DNA from: Maribacter sp. 4G9
GTDB taxonomy: Bacteria > Bacteroidota > Bacteroidia > Flavobacteriales > Flavobacteriaceae
Direction of reading: 5' to 3'
DNA length: 53,223 nt
Assembly: GCF_002742265.1 (NCBI RefSeq)
Contig: NZ_MDGL01000054.1
Location: 1 to 53,223, forward strand
The position numbers and the translations under genes were made by a program. The number at the start of each line of letters is the position of its first letter. Position 1 is the first letter of the stretch. This document shows, piece after piece, positions 2,176-8,118 of the stretch. The notes under the pieces are model-generated. The model saw only the letters and a list, made by a program, of their open reading frames with translations. It made no database searches and was not told the DNA's origin.

Positions 2176-2546
2176 TTTTTAAATTATGGGGTAAAGGTGC
2201 GATAATTTTAATTTTTAAGGAATAAATATTCGATAAAAGGAGGGGTTAATCCAATTAAAGTTCATTTTTTTTATATAATATCCCCATTAAATTTAGGGGT
2301 CTATATAAAAATAACTTATTTTAAAACGAAATACCCCCTCATCCAATAGAAAGATTGAAGAAGGTGGGATATTAAAAAATCTGATGGAACCTAGTTGGTT
2401 ATATCGTGTTGTCTCCGCAAAGGAAGTCGAGAGGTGACCCGAGATTTCGAATATTAAATAGGGTCTCGAATTGAAGTTTATCTGGAGCGAAGTCGAAAGA
2501 CTCGACCTGACAAAGAAATAATACAATTCGCCCTGCTTAAAGCGCG
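2176..2546. other. Non-coding spacer between leuS and ald with repeat-like sequence
   Basis: No convincing gene. The right half contains imperfect, self-complementary runs built on GTCGAGA / TCTCGA and on GAGCGAAGTCGAAAGACTCGAC (about 2418-2513). These resemble the TTCGACTCCGCTCAG-type repeat found inside leuS at 3936-3977. The left half, next to ald, is AT-rich and probably holds the ald promoter. I see no clear rho-independent terminator for leuS. Confidence 0.5.
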
Positions 2547-5500
2547 CTACCCTACGATGTTTACAATTTTACCGGGAACCACAATGACCTTTTTGGGTGT
2601 TCTTCCCTGTAATTGTTGTTGGGTTTTTTCATGGGCCATCACGGCAGCTTCAATTTCCTCTTTGGTCATGTCCATAGGCAGTTCCAATGTAAAACGCATT
2701 TTACCATTAAAGGAAACAGGATACTCCTTGCTGCTTTCTACCAGGTACTTTTCCTCAAACTTGGGAAAAGAAGCCGTAGCAATGGATGTGGTATGCCCCA
2801 ATTTCTCCCAAAGCTCCTCCGCGATATGCGGGGCATAAGGTGAAACCAAAATAGCCAAAGGTTCCAAAATGGCCCTACTATTACATTTTTGCGCGGAAAG
2901 TTCGTTGACACAGATCATAAACGTAGAAACCGAAGTATTAAAACTGAAGTTTTCGATATCCTCCTCTACTTTTTTGATGGTCTTGTGCAAAGTCTTGAAA
3001 GCCTCCCCCGACCCCTCCTTCGGAGGGGCGTCCGACACGTAGAATTCTCCGTTTGGACCGGAGTGATATAGCCTCCAAAGTTTTTTCAAGAAGGAATGCA
3101 CCCCTGTAATACCGGCCGTGTTCCAAGGTTTGGATTGCTCCAAGGGGCCCAGAAACATTTCGTACAACCGTAGACTGTCCGCCCCATATTCCTCACAAAT
3201 GGCATCGGGGTTGACGACATTGTATTTTGATTTGGACATTTTTTCAACCTCACGATAAACTTTTCCCAGAGTTTCTTTGGTCATTTTTTCGTTCGGTATA
3301 ATATTATCACCATCAAAATAGTGTGCGCTTCCAATTTCCGACAACCTAGGGTCATCTATTAAATCTAAAAACCTAAATTCATTTTTAAGATTAACAAAGT
3401 CAACACTTATTTGAGTCGATTTAAAGGCCTTATAATATCTATCATATTCACTAACATCAGGATTAAAATCTTGGTGATAGCTCAGTCTTTCATTCAAGAA
3501 AGACGATAACTTTTTAGGTAGTTGACCTAACATACCCTCATTATTTTCTAGGCTTTCATATAATTCTTTGCTCACAATAATTTGGCAATGTCCACTTACA
3601 TCTTCATTACCATTTCTTAATCTTCCCTCAATAATATTTACAAAAGCACTTTCGCCAGTAATCATCCCTTGATTAATCAACTTTTTGGCAAACTCGTCCT
3701 TGGGTACCCAGCCTTTATCGAACATAAATTTTTGCCAAAACCGGGAATACAATAAATGCCCGGTAGCATGTTCGCTACCGCCAATATATAGATCCACATC
3801 CTGCCAATAGTTAATGGCCTCCTGGGAAAAAATTTCCTCATCATTATGTGGATCCATATAGCGATTGAAATACTGGGAACTTCCGGCCCAACCCGGCATG
3901 GTGTTCAATTCTAGAGCCCCTCCCTTAATTTCGCCACTTCGACCTACTTCGACTCCGCTCAGCACAGGCTGCTCAGTGTCCGAAATGGCCCTCTCAAACT
4001 CTTCTTCAGAGACTACTTTTCCTTCATCCCCATATTGCAGCCAATGCCATTCTTTGGCATTGCCCAATGGCGGCTCTCCGCTTTCCGTAGGCAGGTATTT
4101 GTCTACTTCGGGCAATTCCAAGGGCAAGAACTTTTCATCTAGCATCTGGGGCATACCATCCGCATCATAATAGACCGGGAAGGGTTCGCCCCAATAGCGT
4201 TGCCGGCTGAAAACCGCATCGCGCAAACGATAATTCACCTTTCCTTTTCCCTGTCCTATTTTTTCAAGTTCAAAAATGGCGCGTTTTACGGCTTTTTTGT
4301 AAGGTAGCCCGTTCAAGAAATCGGAATTGGCAATTACCGTATTATCCTTATCGGCAAAAGCTTCCTCCGAAATATCTACCCCTTCGAATATATTGGGAAT
4401 AGGAATACCAAAATGTTTCGCAAAATCGTAATCCCGTTGATCACCACAAGGAACGGACATCACCGCACCGGTACCATAACCCGCCAACACATAATCCCCG
4501 ATCCAAATGGGCACCCGCTCTTTGGTGAAGGGATGCTCAGCATAGGCACCCGTAAAGGCCCCTGTGATGGTCTTAACATCTGCCATACGATCTCGTTCGG
4601 AACGTTTCGCCGTGGCCTCTATGTAGGCCTCAACCTCATCCTTTTGTTCAGGGGTGGTGATTTTGGACACCAATTCATGCTCCGGTGCCAAGGTCATAAA
4701 AGAAACCCCGAAAATGGTATCGGGCCGGGTGGTGAAGACTTCAATGGTGTCCCCTCCCCAACCCTCCCCTGAGGGGAGGGAGTGTAAAGTCTGTTCAATA
4801 TTACGTATGACATCCTCTAGATTATTCAAAACTTCCTCATTGGAAAACCGAATGACCTTGAATCCTTTCTTTTGTTCCAATTCCAATGTCCTTTGGGCAT
4901 CTTTGTCAAGTTGATATTCATGGATTTTTCCATCGACTTCAATAATCAGGTTCTTTTCAAGAGATACAAAATCAACAATGTATCTATAGATAGGATGCTG
5001 TCTTCTAAATTTTAAATCCAATTTTTTAGTGCGAAGTGCTTGCCACAAAACATTCTCAGCCTCTGTTGGGTTTTTTCGCATTTCTTTGGCCCGCTCCAGC
5101 AAAACACCGATAATGGAAGAATCCCCAGTAAGTCTCGAATGCTCTCCCCCTCCAATGGAGGGGGCCGGGGGGAGGACTTTAAAAGTGACAGAAGCCCCTT
5201 CAGAGCGCCCGATCCAATTGGTCTGGGAATCTTTAAGTGGTTGCGGCCAATCGATTTTATCGAGTCCGTCCAACAAACGTTGGGCGTAAGCCGTAATACG
5301 CATACTCCACTGCGTCATTTTCTTCCGAATCACAGGATGGCCACCACGCTCGGAAACCCCGTTTACAATTTCATCATTGGCCAAAACAGTACCCAATGCC
5401 GGACACCAGTTCACTTCGGTATCCGCTAAATACGTAAGTCTATATTTTAAAAGTAAGGCCTGTTTTTCCTTGGATGAAAATGCATTCCATAACTCCGCCG

Positions 5501-6056
5501 TAATATTAGGGGTATCGTCATCACATACCGCATTTACTTTGGTGTTTCCCTCCTTCTCGAAAATCTGGATCAGACTGTCTATAGCCTCTGCCTTATCGGT
5601 ATCCATATTATACCAGGAATTGAACAATTGTATAAAAATCCATTGGGTCCATTTATAGTAACTTGGATCCGAGGTACGTACCTCCCGGCTCCAATCAAAA
5701 GAGAAACCCAACTGGTCCAACTGCCTTCTATAGGTCTTAATGTTGGCCTCTGTGGTAATGGCAGGGTGCTGTCCCGTTTGAATGGCATATTGCTCCGCCG
5801 GTAAACCAAAGGAATCATAGCCCTGTGGATGCAACACATTGAAACCCTTATGCCTTTTGTAACGGGCATAGATATCACTGGCAATATACCCTAACGGATG
5901 CCCCACATGTAGCCCTGCCCCCGAAGGATATGGGAACATGTCCAAGACATAGAATTTTTCCTTTTCGGAATCGTTGTCCGCCTTAAAGGTTTGGTTTTCC
6001 GCCCAATATTTTTGCCACTTGGCCTCAATTTCGTTGAAATTGTAATTCATCTTCAC
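2547..6056 (-). CDS. leuS: Leucyl-tRNA synthetase with in-frame DUF559 nuclease cassette and other insertions
   Basis: Charges tRNA-Leu with leucine and edits mischarged tRNA. The HIGH motif is HVGH (residues 50-53), KMSKS is at 939-943, the WAGSS motif at about 723-727, the editing-site motif TTRPDT at 442-447, and an anticodon-binding region occupies about 1010-1110. At 1169 residues it is about 200 longer than I expect for the family. The excess sits in discrete places: a DUF559 nuclease domain (about 317-424) with palindrome-encoded flanks in a beta-hairpin loop just before TTRPDT; a palindrome-encoded stretch at about 694-707; an atypical AT-rich leucine-specific region at about 804-930; and a palindrome-encoded stretch at about 1008-1019. 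All are in frame and every catalytic motif is intact, so the enzyme is probably functional. The second Met (residue 3, MNYNFNEIEAKW) may be the true start. A TATTTTTG -7 element lies at 6130-6137 on this strand. Confidence 0.96.
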   Translation of the reverse strand: MKMNYNFNEIEAKWQKYWAENQTFKADNDSEKEKFYVLDMFPYPSGAGLHVGHPLGYIASDIYARYKRHKGFNVLHPQGYDSFGLPAEQYAIQTGQHPAITTEANIKTYRRQLDQLGFSFDWSREVRTSDPSYYKWTQWIFIQLFNSWYNMDTDKAEAIDSLIQIFEKEGNTKVNAVCDDDTPNITAELWNAFSSKEKQALLLKYRLTYLADTEVNWCPALGTVLANDEIVNGVSERGGHPVIRKKMTQWSMRITAYAQRLLDGLDKIDWPQPLKDSQTNWIGRSEGASVTFKVLPPAPSIGGGEHSRLTGDSSIIGVLLERAKEMRKNPTEAENVLWQALRTKKLDLKFRRQHPIYRYIVDFVSLEKNLIIEVDGKIHEYQLDKDAQRTLELEQKKGFKVIRFSNEEVLNNLEDVIRNIEQTLHSLPSGEGWGGDTIEVFTTRPDTIFGVSFMTLAPEHELVSKITTPEQKDEVEAYIEATAKRSERDRMADVKTITGAFTGAYAEHPFTKERVPIWIGDYVLAGYGTGAVMSVPCGDQRDYDFAKHFGIPIPNIFEGVDISEEAFADKDNTVIANSDFLNGLPYKKAVKRAIFELEKIGQGKGKVNYRLRDAVFSRQRYWGEPFPVYYDADGMPQMLDEKFLPLELPEVDKYLPTESGEPPLGNAKEWHWLQYGDEGKVVSEEEFERAISDTEQPVLSGVEVGRSGEIKGGALELNTMPGWAGSSQYFNRYMDPHNDEEIFSQEAINYWQDVDLYIGGSEHATGHLLYSRFWQKFMFDKGWVPKDEFAKKLINQGMITGESAFVNIIEGRLRNGNEDVSGHCQIIVSKELYESLENNEGMLGQLPKKLSSFLNERLSYHQDFNPDVSEYDRYYKAFKSTQISVDFVNLKNEFRFLDLIDDPRLSEIGSAHYFDGDNIIPNEKMTKETLGKVYREVEKMSKSKYNVVNPDAICEEYGADSLRLYEMFLGPLEQSKPWNTAGITGVHSFLKKLWRLYHSGPNGEFYVSDAPPKEGSGEAFKTLHKTIKKVEEDIENFSFNTSVSTFMICVNELSAQKCNSRAILEPLAILVSPYAPHIAEELWEKLGHTTSIATASFPKFEEKYLVESSKEYPVSFNGKMRFTLELPMDMTKEEIEAAVMAHEKTQQQLQGRTPKKVIVVPGKIVNIVG
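3000..3035 (-). repeat. Solo GC-rich palindrome read in frame within leuS
   Basis: On the plus strand CCCCTCC (3012-3018), loop TTC, GGAGGGG (3022-3028) forms a perfect 7-bp hairpin. It is preceded by a C-rich tail (CCTCCCCCGA). The same tail plus hairpin architecture forms each end of the DUF559 cassette at 4749-5177. Here it stands alone and encodes SDAPPKEGSGEA in LeuRS, in a loop that is short in the family as I recall it. It is probably a solo copy of the cassette-end repeat. Confidence 0.75.
3267..3647 (-). other. Atypical AT-rich leucine-specific domain segment of leuS
   Basis: This encodes residues about 804-930, between INQGMITGESAFV and REVEKMSKS. In related flavobacterial LeuRS, as I recall, this stretch is shorter and reads like a conserved domain ending AEFILEDGKYICG. 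Here the sequence is different (for example KKLSSFLNERLSYHQDF and FVNLKNEFRFLDLIDDPR), about 40 residues longer, and clearly richer in A and T than the rest of the gene. The ends are in frame and the KMSKS loop is intact. It may be a horizontally replaced or rapidly diverged leucine-specific domain. Confidence 0.5.
3936..3977 (-). repeat. TTCGACTCCGCTCAG-type repeat read in frame within leuS
   Basis: The plus strand contains CTTCGACTCCGCTCAG followed by CACAGGCTGCTCAG, a repeat type I recognise from flavobacterial spacers. Here it is inside a gene, encoding TEQPVLSGVEVGRS in LeuRS just before LELNTMPGWAGSS. The encoded residues interrupt a short acidic loop that normally links the zinc-finger-like region to the catalytic core. 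Related sequence lies in the spacer at about 2488-2513. Confidence 0.65.
4749..5177 (-). mobile_element. DUF559 nuclease cassette with terminal inverted repeats, inserted in leuS
   Basis: The 429-bp segment is exactly 143 codons. The left end (4749-4784) starts GTCCCCTCCCC and contains the perfect hairpin CCCTCCCC-TGA-GGGGAGGG (4762-4780). The right end (5141-5177), read on the other strand, starts GTCCTCCCCCC and contains CCCCCTCC-ATT-GGAGGGGG (5146-5164). The two ends are therefore imperfect inverted repeats of about 36 bp. Between them lies a DUF559 domain: the N-terminal helix with NPTEAENVLWQALR, then FRRQHPI, YIVDF, IIEVDGKIHE and GFKVIRFSNEEV. The acidic residues D362 (YIVDF), E373 and D375 (IIEVDG) match a PD-(D/E)XK / Vsr-type active site, so nuclease activity is plausible. 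There is no stop codon, intein or intron signature; the cassette is translated as part of LeuRS. Confidence 0.82.
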
Positions 6057-6147
6057 AGTACTAAAAGTTTGACCCGTATTGATTTTATTTAGTAAAAATA
6101 TCCTACTAGGCTAGAATTTCGTTAGGGCACAAAAATAGGCCTATTCG

Positions 6148-8118
6148 ATGAAAGTTGAAAAGATATTGATGAATTACACCTTACCTCTCATACAACCAAA
6201 AAATGAATACTTTCTATACCAAAACCGTATCTTTATTCCTGTGAATACAGCAGGTCCCAAATACTTTCTTTGCTTTCTCCTCCTCCTGGTTTTGGCCTCA
6301 TTGGAAGGAAGGGCCCAGCTAGGATTTTGTACAGGTAATTCCGGAGACCCTATTTTTACGGAGAATTTTGGGTCCGGTACCACGGATGGCCCTGCACTTC
6401 CACCCGGCACCACAACCTATAATTTCACCACTGGGACTCCCAATGACGGGGACTATACCATTTCCAGTACTACCAATTATTTTGATTGGCAAAACGTGGA
6501 CGACAATACCCCAGGCGACACAAATGGAAAAATGTTCATAGTGAACGCAAGTTTTACGGCCGGGGAGTTTTACCAGCGTGCCGTTACGGGTCTGTGCGAA
6601 AATACCACCTATGAGTTTTCATCTTGGTTGATAAACCTTTTACCTGCTAATTCTTGTGAAAGCAACGGTATCCCAATAAACGTACGGTTTCAGATATGGG
6701 ACGAGACGGACACAAATCTTCTGGCGCAGGGCGATACGGGCAACATACCGGCCAGAGCGTCCGCTAACTGGGAGCAATATGCCCTTGTATTTCAAACTCT
6801 TCCGGGACAGACTTCCGTCATCCTAAAAATGCGAAACAATAGCAATGGCGGTTGCGGCAACGATCTCGCCATCGATGATATCGTATTTAAGTCCTGTGGC
6901 GATTCCGTTACGGTCAATACAGACTTGGGTGAGGATAACCTAATAAGCTGCGAAAATCAAGGATCGGTTTCTGCTACTTTGGTGGCAACCCCAGACAATT
7001 CCATTTTTTCCACCCATGCCTACCAGTGGCAGGCAAGTACGGACAATCAAAATTGGACCAACATACCAGGTGAGAACACCAATACCTTTACGACCCCAAT
7101 GTTGAATACAACAAGTTTTTACCGGGTAAAGGTGGCAGAGGACCCCGTTAATGTCTCCAATGACCTTTGTAATGTACTATCCGATGTGTTCGAAATCAAT
7201 ATCGTACCCATCCCGCCGCCACCCATAAGCAATGGTGATGTATCCGTATGCGTGAATGAAACCGCCACTTTAAACGTGGATAGTGCTGATATTTATAGCG
7301 TAAATTGGTATGATTCCCCAACCGGGGGAAACCTGCTTTTGGAAAACAGTAGGGAGTTTTCCCCTACCGAAGCAGGCACGTACTATGCAGAAGCAAATTC
7401 CAATGAGGTTGATTGTCCGTCAGACACCAGAACGGCCATCACCTTAACCTTTAATCCGTTACCCCAGGTTTTTGACAGCATTGTAACTTTTTGCGAGGGA
7501 GATACGGCACTTTTGTCGGCTGAAATCGACAATGTCAGCTATACCTGGAGTACCGGGGAGGTTACACGGGATATTACGGTGGGCACTCCCGGAGAGTATT
7601 CCGTAACCGTAACGAATGCGAACGGATGTTCCAGTACAAGAACAATTGTTTTGGAACAGATAGATGCACCTCGATTGGATTCGGTTAGGACCAACGGGCG
7701 ATCTATTATCATAACGACCCAGAACGCAGGGGACTTTGAATTTTCCTTGGATGGTACCAATTTTCAGGACAGTCCTATTTTTGAAGCTGTTCTAGGAGGA
7801 ATGTATACTATTTATATTCGGGACAAGACCAACTGCGGCATCATCACGACCGATTTCCTTCATATTGTAGTCCCCAATTTTTTCACACCAAACGGGGACA
7901 CAACCAATGACGTTCTAATTCCGGAAGGAATAGCATCCTTTAGCGAGGTTGAACTTTCCATTTACAACCGATATGGCAAACTATTGAAATATGGAAAAGG
8001 GGAGAATGCTTCTTGGGACGGCACCTTTTTGGGTGCCCCTATGCCGGAGTCCGATTATTGGTACCGCCTACAATTGGATACTTTGGTGCGCAAGGGGCAT
8101 TTTACCTTGAAGCGATGA
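6148..8118 (+). CDS. Secreted protein with Ig-like repeats and type B T9SS C-terminal sorting domain
   Basis: A 656-residue exported protein. A hydrophobic stretch ending LASLEGRAQ (about 38-57) is a signal peptide. An in-frame GTG at 6241 (residue 32) would give a normal-length signal and may be the true start, because ATG starts at 6148 or 6169 leave an unusually long N-terminus. The mature part begins with a Cys-containing beta-sandwich region (about 60-250), followed by Ig/PKD-like modules (about 260-560) with SVCVNETATLNV and VTFCEGDTALLSA repeats. The C-terminal 83 residues (VVPNFFTPNGDTTND to the end) are the gliding-motility-associated / type B T9SS sorting domain, so the protein should cross the outer membrane through T9SS and stay on or near the surface. 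Its ligand is unknown. Confidence 0.88.
   Translation: MKVEKILMNYTLPLIQPKNEYFLYQNRIFIPVNTAGPKYFLCFLLLLVLASLEGRAQLGFCTGNSGDPIFTENFGSGTTDGPALPPGTTTYNFTTGTPNDGDYTISSTTNYFDWQNVDDNTPGDTNGKMFIVNASFTAGEFYQRAVTGLCENTTYEFSSWLINLLPANSCESNGIPINVRFQIWDETDTNLLAQGDTGNIPARASANWEQYALVFQTLPGQTSVILKMRNNSNGGCGNDLAIDDIVFKSCGDSVTVNTDLGEDNLISCENQGSVSATLVATPDNSIFSTHAYQWQASTDNQNWTNIPGENTNTFTTPMLNTTSFYRVKVAEDPVNVSNDLCNVLSDVFEINIVPIPPPPISNGDVSVCVNETATLNVDSADIYSVNWYDSPTGGNLLLENSREFSPTEAGTYYAEANSNEVDCPSDTRTAITLTFNPLPQVFDSIVTFCEGDTALLSAEIDNVSYTWSTGEVTRDITVGTPGEYSVTVTNANGCSSTRTIVLEQIDAPRLDSVRTNGRSIIITTQNAGDFEFSLDGTNFQDSPIFEAVLGGMYTIYIRDKTNCGIITTDFLHIVVPNFFTPNGDTTNDVLIPEGIASFSEVELSIYNRYGKLLKYGKGENASWDGTFLGAPMPESDYWYRLQLDTLVRKGHFTLKR

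Follow-up and report, generated by a model that had tools for sequence, protein, structure and literature searches.

The leucyl-tRNA synthetase (LeuRS) gene leuS of Maribacter sp. 4G9, contained in the 53,223 nucleotides of contig NZ_MDGL01000054.1 (hereafter the window), holds within its reading frame a 429-bp cassette that encodes a DUF559 nuclease domain and is bounded by inverted hairpin-plus-tail ends. The anatomy of this cassette, its mobility and its wide host range are well supported. Our interpretation, which we consider probable, is that it is a homing-type nuclease element which is not spliced, spreads among permissive in-frame loops and is driven by cleavage. We infer self-driven spread, by the cutting of insert-less alleles, to be the likeliest force behind its distribution.

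Anatomy of the cassette in leuS

The profile score of the 1169-residue host protein (Table 1) compares with a cut-off of 548 bits, and leuS is single-copy, being the sole match at E≤1e-50 in its own assembly. That a stop-free DUF559 segment lies in frame in leuS, as the original prediction had it, is confirmed: the domain matches its profile with an E-value of 3.4e-34 in the whole LeuRS and of 9e-36 in the segment alone, and the leuS frame runs through the segment without stops, compared with 2 to 14 stops in each of the other five frames of a 447-nt span (the segment and a few flanking codons). The inverted ends had also been correctly recognized as hairpins with C-rich tails, each hairpin being a 19-bp palindrome with its tail outside, and in this copy of leuS the palindromes are indeed read through in frame, the protein continuing into TIEVF and the editing motif TTRPDT. 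LeuRS and the nuclease would, judging from the sequence, be translated as one chain. An intein or an intron was considered and rejected, in keeping with the earlier description of the segment as free of such features: no intein family is among the Pfam and NCBIfam matches of the whole LeuRS protein, an Rfam scan of positions 2400-6200 at E≤1 returned no intron family (three matches, all far below gathering scores), and the frame is open throughout.

Table 1. Features of leuS and of the cassette, in positions of the window
Feature	Position	Strand	Basis
leuS host gene, 1169 codons	2547..6056	-	TIGR00396, 899 bits; single match in own genome
In-frame element, 429 bp, in place of the hairpin tip at the LeuRS editing-domain entry	4749..5177	-	open frame, DUF559, hairpin ends, comparison with relatives
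DUF559 (EDxHD/Vsr-like) nuclease domain, residues 321-424	4785..5096	-	
5′-end hairpin (gene sense) of element	5146..5164	.	perfect 19-bp palindrome
C-rich tail outside 5′ hairpin	5165..5177	.	sequence; same tail in related inserts
3′-end hairpin (gene sense) of element	4762..4780	.	perfect 19-bp palindrome
G-rich (gene sense) tail outside 3′ hairpin, inverted copy of 5′ tail	4749..4761	.	sequence; related inserts
LeuRS editing motif TTRPDT, immediately downstream of element	4716..4733	-	translation
In-frame solo hairpin-plus-tail within leuS, same type as in the element (DAPPKEGSGE)	3003..3032	-	pattern search of own genome

An artefact of assembly or of reading frame is extremely improbable. 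The strain's own assembly does consist of 196 contigs; against this, 47 leuS inserts were obtained from separate records, the single-contig genomes G125, G215 and G131 among them, and all 47 are open through the insert (an open frame being itself required for extraction). Among the 75-nt ends of these inserts, 68% at the 5′ side and 53% at the 3′ side contain a perfect stem of at least 7 bp, compared with 2.0% of 357 windows inside the inserts and 5.5% of 2118 LeuRS windows. Since both ends reach a 6-bp stem in 25 of the 47, palindromes are strongly enriched without being present in every copy. Related inserts have ends of the same plan, with a sequence specific to the site group.

The model of full-length LeuRS is poor (predicted local distance difference test score 52.6, from 21 sequences), and the structural work is that on the 143-residue model of the element alone. 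Both this fold and the DUF559 profile match I-Bth0305I, with its Vsr-like restriction-endonuclease catalytic domain. Conservation of the catalytic residues D66, E77, D79 and H83 is 97-100% among the DUF559 copies in leuS (43), in other hosts (33) and free-standing (31). The acidic residues, said from the start to be intact, are so in the copy of the window, and among the 47 leuS inserts only that of G002 has lost catalytic residues, L009 differing only at a neighbouring G. The domain is presumably an active nuclease.

The LeuRS slot in relatives, and other hosts

The site was readable in 34 of the 36 genomes of the genus searched (all except G324 and G326), the strain's own genome, G000, included. 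DUF559 is present in five of them (G000, G300, G304, G321, G323), the native 31-residue NWIG...TTRPDT stretch in 17, and 34-50 residues of other sequence, some of it palindromic, in 12. In the family sample of 110 genomes, 108 of which were matched, five have a DUF559-sized insert (G000, G002, G023, G036, G050) and eight more a 40-70-residue stretch of other, often palindromic sequence. G307 and G320, with flanks near-identical to those of Maribacter sp. 4G9 (95% over residues 2-296), hold in the slot a short sequence with GTCACTGAGCGTAGCCGAAGTGAC, and G314 holds the remnant-like CCTCCAAAGGAGG. Because relatives have there either a native tip (e.g., SAVFNVKDHDEK-IEVF) or some other short sequence, the cassette is seen to replace the tip of the LeuRS hairpin. 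The original prediction is borne out in that close relatives lack the segment, but the precise empty allele it expected, with a bare VTFK/TIEVF join, was not found among them. An ancient LeuRS domain, which would have refuted that prediction, is rejected in view of these relatives and of the patchy presence of DUF559 in the genus and family samples and on the LeuRS tree.

The slot thus accepts DUF559, palindromic and other short sequences, and is therefore permissive for many guests, DUF559 being one. Many short in-frame sequences, unrelated and often palindromic, were also noted in it in different genera (L100, L102, L103, L206, L208, L210, L211, L213, L214), giving it the look of a general landing site for repeats. 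The insert in leuS of G002 (L205), still in frame, has no palindromes and has lost its catalytic D and H, and looks like the decayed end stage of the element.

DUF559 frames had been predicted in other Bacteroidota genes, and they do occur in frame in many, often with palindromic borders. DUF559 matches are present in 143 of 299 genomes of the family and in 222 of 395 of the phylum (Bacteroidota), and 46 of the 150 family matches listed lie in stop-to-stop frames of at least 290 amino acids. Besides leuS, 18 host families, named by profile with one example each, carry the domain in frame, some at a terminus only: metH (three sites), recG, ileS, hisD (C-terminal), hsdR, icmF, hisF and hemF (N-terminal), rnhA (N-terminal), UDP-galactopyranose mutase, type I hsdM, a BREX/type II-like methylase, a RecB-like helicase, hemD (N-terminal), a type ISP restriction enzyme, a UvrD helicase, a GATase_5 protein (C-terminal) and an N6/N4 methylase; a second leuS site is also occupied. 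Host-family matches on both sides of the insert are clearest in metH, recG, ileS, hsdR, icmF, UDP-galactopyranose mutase, type ISP and UvrD, and since the frames run from stop to stop, the N-terminal cases (hemD, hemF, hisF, rnhA) are perhaps not expressed as fusion proteins. That inserts sit beside the most conserved motif of their host is only a hint: the downstream 15-residue windows stand at percentiles 0.93 (leuS1), 0.992 (metH1), 0.958 (recG), 0.925 (leuS2) and 0.994 (hsdR), with upstream windows also high in four of these five sites and motifs chosen post hoc.

Some genomes carry several copies. The second in-frame copy of Maribacter sp. 4G9 is in a type ISP restriction-modification gene (L146, G000:C26, open reading frame (ORF) 3550-7263, minus strand). 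In the single-contig genome G215, leuS has one copy and a single metH (L147, ORF 3386-6862, minus strand) two, about 1.2 kb apart, which are sisters in the DUF559 tree (support 90), suggesting copying to a new site. Carriage as phage or plasmid cargo was rejected, the 37 plasmid records all lying below 60% identity and the one phage record at 32.5%.

Several other observations concern these genes. The type ISP gene also holds a third, solo hairpin, and an insert occupies the corresponding position in G514 (L263). The free-standing DUF559 ORF of the strain (L002 1200-2100, G000:C124) lies among tandemly repeated hairpin units, CCCCTCTTT...AAAGAGGGG, whose tails read GATTCGG...CGAATCGGGGAG. In leuS itself, residues about 801-934, before KMSKS, are a long, poorly conserved region, highly variable among carriers in the alignment. 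A further in-frame stretch of the gene (positions 3918-3983, minus strand), SDTEQPVLSGVEVGRSGEIKGG, precedes TMPGWAGSS; its part CTGAGCGGAGTCGAAG resembles the hairpin-slot repeats of relatives, and before TMPGWAGSS three other Bacteroidota genomes (L258, L262, L266) have a DUF559 insert. The solo hairpin of Table 1 is in the C-terminal part of leuS, and a similar one lies inside the leuS of G305 (C1:2257811).

Spread of the cassette and its possible causes

The DUF559 tree (107 domains from 143 matches, after removal of duplicate, short and weak ones) is grouped by insertion site, with 12 label changes for a minimum of 10 and a shuffled mean of 55.9. Supported site clades include hemD (98), recG (91), metH1 with one metH2 (99) and glf (100); the leuS domains form two large groups and one outlier, and many deep forks of the tree lack resolution. 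In a 115-row LeuRS tree, with DUF559 in 49 of the rows (a set enriched in carriers and with a few identical rows), presence of the domain requires 24 changes, 16 of them forced by well supported branches, compared with 37.1 when shuffled. The trees of insert and host, compared for 39 of the 47 inserts (after exclusion of identical copies and of L027, G002 and G023), reject each other (approximately unbiased test, 4e-63 and 2e-27; Robinson-Foulds distance 60 of 72). Occupancy is, in short, site-specific, patchy and horizontally spreading, though vertical in Aequorivita.

Inserts are also younger than their hosts in several lineages. In the ten closest leuS pairs, from four lineages, synonymous divergence (dS) of the insert is 2.3-5.2-fold below that of LeuRS (e.g., 0.147 vs 0.651 in L028/L029, 0.210 vs 0.654 in G304/G321 and 0.234 vs 1.210 in L007/L009), and in these three pairs no equal-sized LeuRS window is as alike as the insert. 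Same-codon counts in 1029 leuS pairs, which are not independent of each other, yield 14 in which the insert is more alike than LeuRS at a significance level of 1e-3, and no significant pair in the opposite direction. At the same time, inserts are under purifying selection, their ratio of nonsynonymous to synonymous change (omega) being 0.05-0.14 in the ten closest pairs. The likeness to homing nucleases raised in the original prediction has gained from the youth of the inserts, as from the I-Bth0305I match and the clustering by insertion site.

The unit that moves has narrow limits. G304 and G321, the clearest case, have near-identical inserts, immediately downstream of which each resembles its own insert-less neighbour (G321 like G302, G304 like G327); upstream, the two share only TCAGTCACG (about 9 bp), where G302, G327 and G328 have another sequence. 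As the flanks follow the recipient's neighbours, the moving unit is almost exactly the cassette. Such boundaries seem tighter than those of classical long-tract homing and keep a transposition-like route open.

These results bear on two further explanations. Domestication, in which DUF559 would be a functional accessory domain of LeuRS (for tRNA or DNA binding, or regulation), would agree with an insert that is in frame and under selection; it is very improbable given that most relatives have no insert, that insert trees depart from those of the host and that the same domain is found in metH, recG, hsdR and others. Ordinary horizontal exchange, with leuS cassettes passing between species by homologous recombination and the nuclease a tolerated passenger, is in our judgement quite unlikely. 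The hairpin slot does hold unrelated short sequences too, and the Aequorivita insert pairs share the history of their host, but purifying selection and the catalytic residues kept in nearly every copy speak against it, as do the lack of a shared flank around the recent G304/G321 pair and the presence of the domain in many unrelated hosts.

A more serious rival, though still an unlikely one, is suggested by the hairpins. Repetitive extragenic palindromic (REP) sequences and REPINs resemble the element in forming inverted hairpin-plus-tail pairs around, and scattered near, the gene of a DNA-cutting enzyme, the REP-associated tyrosine transposase (RAYT). In a similar mode, the DUF559 protein would recognize the hairpin ends and mobilize the cassette and solo hairpins as (single-stranded) DNA, protein loops being the places where insertions survive. 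Besides the inverted ends, the host families numbering at least 19 and the tight boundaries without co-conversion, the solo hairpins themselves favour this. A variable-loop pattern of the element's type, CCCCTCCN{1,7}GGAGGGG, has eight sites in the strain's own genome (five of which lie within the frames of leuS and the type ISP gene) vs none for the control, and 103 matches vs 2 across the 36 genomes of the genus; a version with a fixed 4-base loop matched nothing in the own genome, as the actual loop is shorter than four bases. Among the 75 matches listed, 34 have a DUF559 gene no farther than 5 kb away, where a uniform distribution predicts 0.25, and 10 have one within 100 bp (expectation 0.013). 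Hairpin repeats are thus linked to DUF559 genes in inverted hairpin-plus-tail units, in low copy numbers. A second hairpin pattern has four sites in the same 36 genomes, three of them ends of leuS inserts, and is therefore not a dispersed repeat there. Against a REP-like transposition stand the insert trees, which by clustering by site imply that most spread goes to the same site, and the fact that the cassette takes the place of host codons, with no target duplication in evidence. In addition, RAYTs are transposases with the HUH Y1 fold, whereas the DUF559 enzyme has the restriction-endonuclease-like PD-(D/E)XK/Vsr-like fold and several of its copies are intragenic.

The homing-type interpretation has difficulties of its own. 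The element is without an evident extra DNA-binding region of the kind that extends EDxHD homing enzymes, and the sequence adjoining the insert shows none of the raised similarity that long-tract homing would leave. The Aequorivita pairs L018/L019 and L018/L056 are at parity, i.e., inherited vertically. Outside leuS the signal of younger inserts is mostly non-significant, with p<1e-3 in one of 105 metH1 pairs, one of 45 recG pairs (G412/G609, 6e-9) and none at the remaining sites, and in hsdR even the direction holds in only one of six pairs. Finally, the slight general same-codon excess of inserts (618 of the 1029 leuS pairs) may be compositional.

If the homing-type interpretation is correct, a DUF559 reading frame between inverted hairpin-plus-tail ends would form a mobile element that takes the tip of a tolerant LeuRS surface hairpin, keeps the frame and is translated within the enzyme with neither splicing nor excision. 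The cassette would pass from the leuS of one species to that of another separately from the rest of the gene, its nuclease breaking or nicking alleles without it and repair copying it with very short flanks. In a rarer step it may reach new permissive loops, giving rise to the lineages in metH, recG, hsdR and others. The in-frame site in an essential gene would shield the element, since most deletions or frameshifts removing it would kill the host. We extend this more tentatively, as a real possibility rather than our expectation, to hairpin-bounded DUF559 nucleases in general: these may be a homing class without intron, intein or gene splitting, which enters permissive loops next to conserved motifs, in housekeeping as well as restriction-modification proteins across the Bacteroidota, stays permanently exposed as part of the host enzyme, acts from there on insert-less alleles and mobilizes REP-like hairpins.

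Relation to known systems and significance

EDxHD enzymes have been described (PMC3943268), and a DUF559 gene has been assigned to their homing family (PMC9403480). I-Bth0305I and the EDxHD homing endonucleases are like the element in catalytic fold, profile similarity and patchy, site-clustered occupancy; I-Bth0305I, however, appears in the PDB listing as a 'mobile intron protein', whereas the element has no intron or intein and its nuclease stays in the host protein. The free-standing homing endonucleases mobE, in nrdA of phage Aeh1, and mobA, in the T4 topoisomerase, likewise invade a conserved host gene and leave a functional enzyme, but they split that gene into two polypeptides (PMC2988022), and the element keeps the frame and would yield one chain with the nuclease. 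Rickettsia palindromic elements are, like ours, palindromic, in frame in genes and translated (translation of ours being deduced from open frames and selection); they are about 150 bp long and encode a short conserved peptide (PMC10969869), as opposed to a 429-bp unit that carries a nuclease and has evidence of interspecies transfer. The DUF559 protein VsrA of Caulobacter, tied to DNA damage in vivo, is a stand-alone host protein proposed for mismatch repair and is not mobile (PMC12907096). A search of mainly open literature, with subscription journals mostly outside it, found no description of an in-frame, unspliced DUF559 element.

On the usual view, a selfish nuclease can survive in an essential gene only through self-splicing, by occupying a gene end or by splitting the gene. 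If our interpretation is correct, an unspliced nuclease inside aminoacyl-tRNA synthetases, methionine synthase or RecG would be a further solution to the problem of damage to the host. This would explain the odd DUF559 'fusions' found in annotations, would show which loops of essential enzymes can accommodate an entire additional domain, and would give a family of REP-like hairpins that has no RAYT its candidate enzyme.
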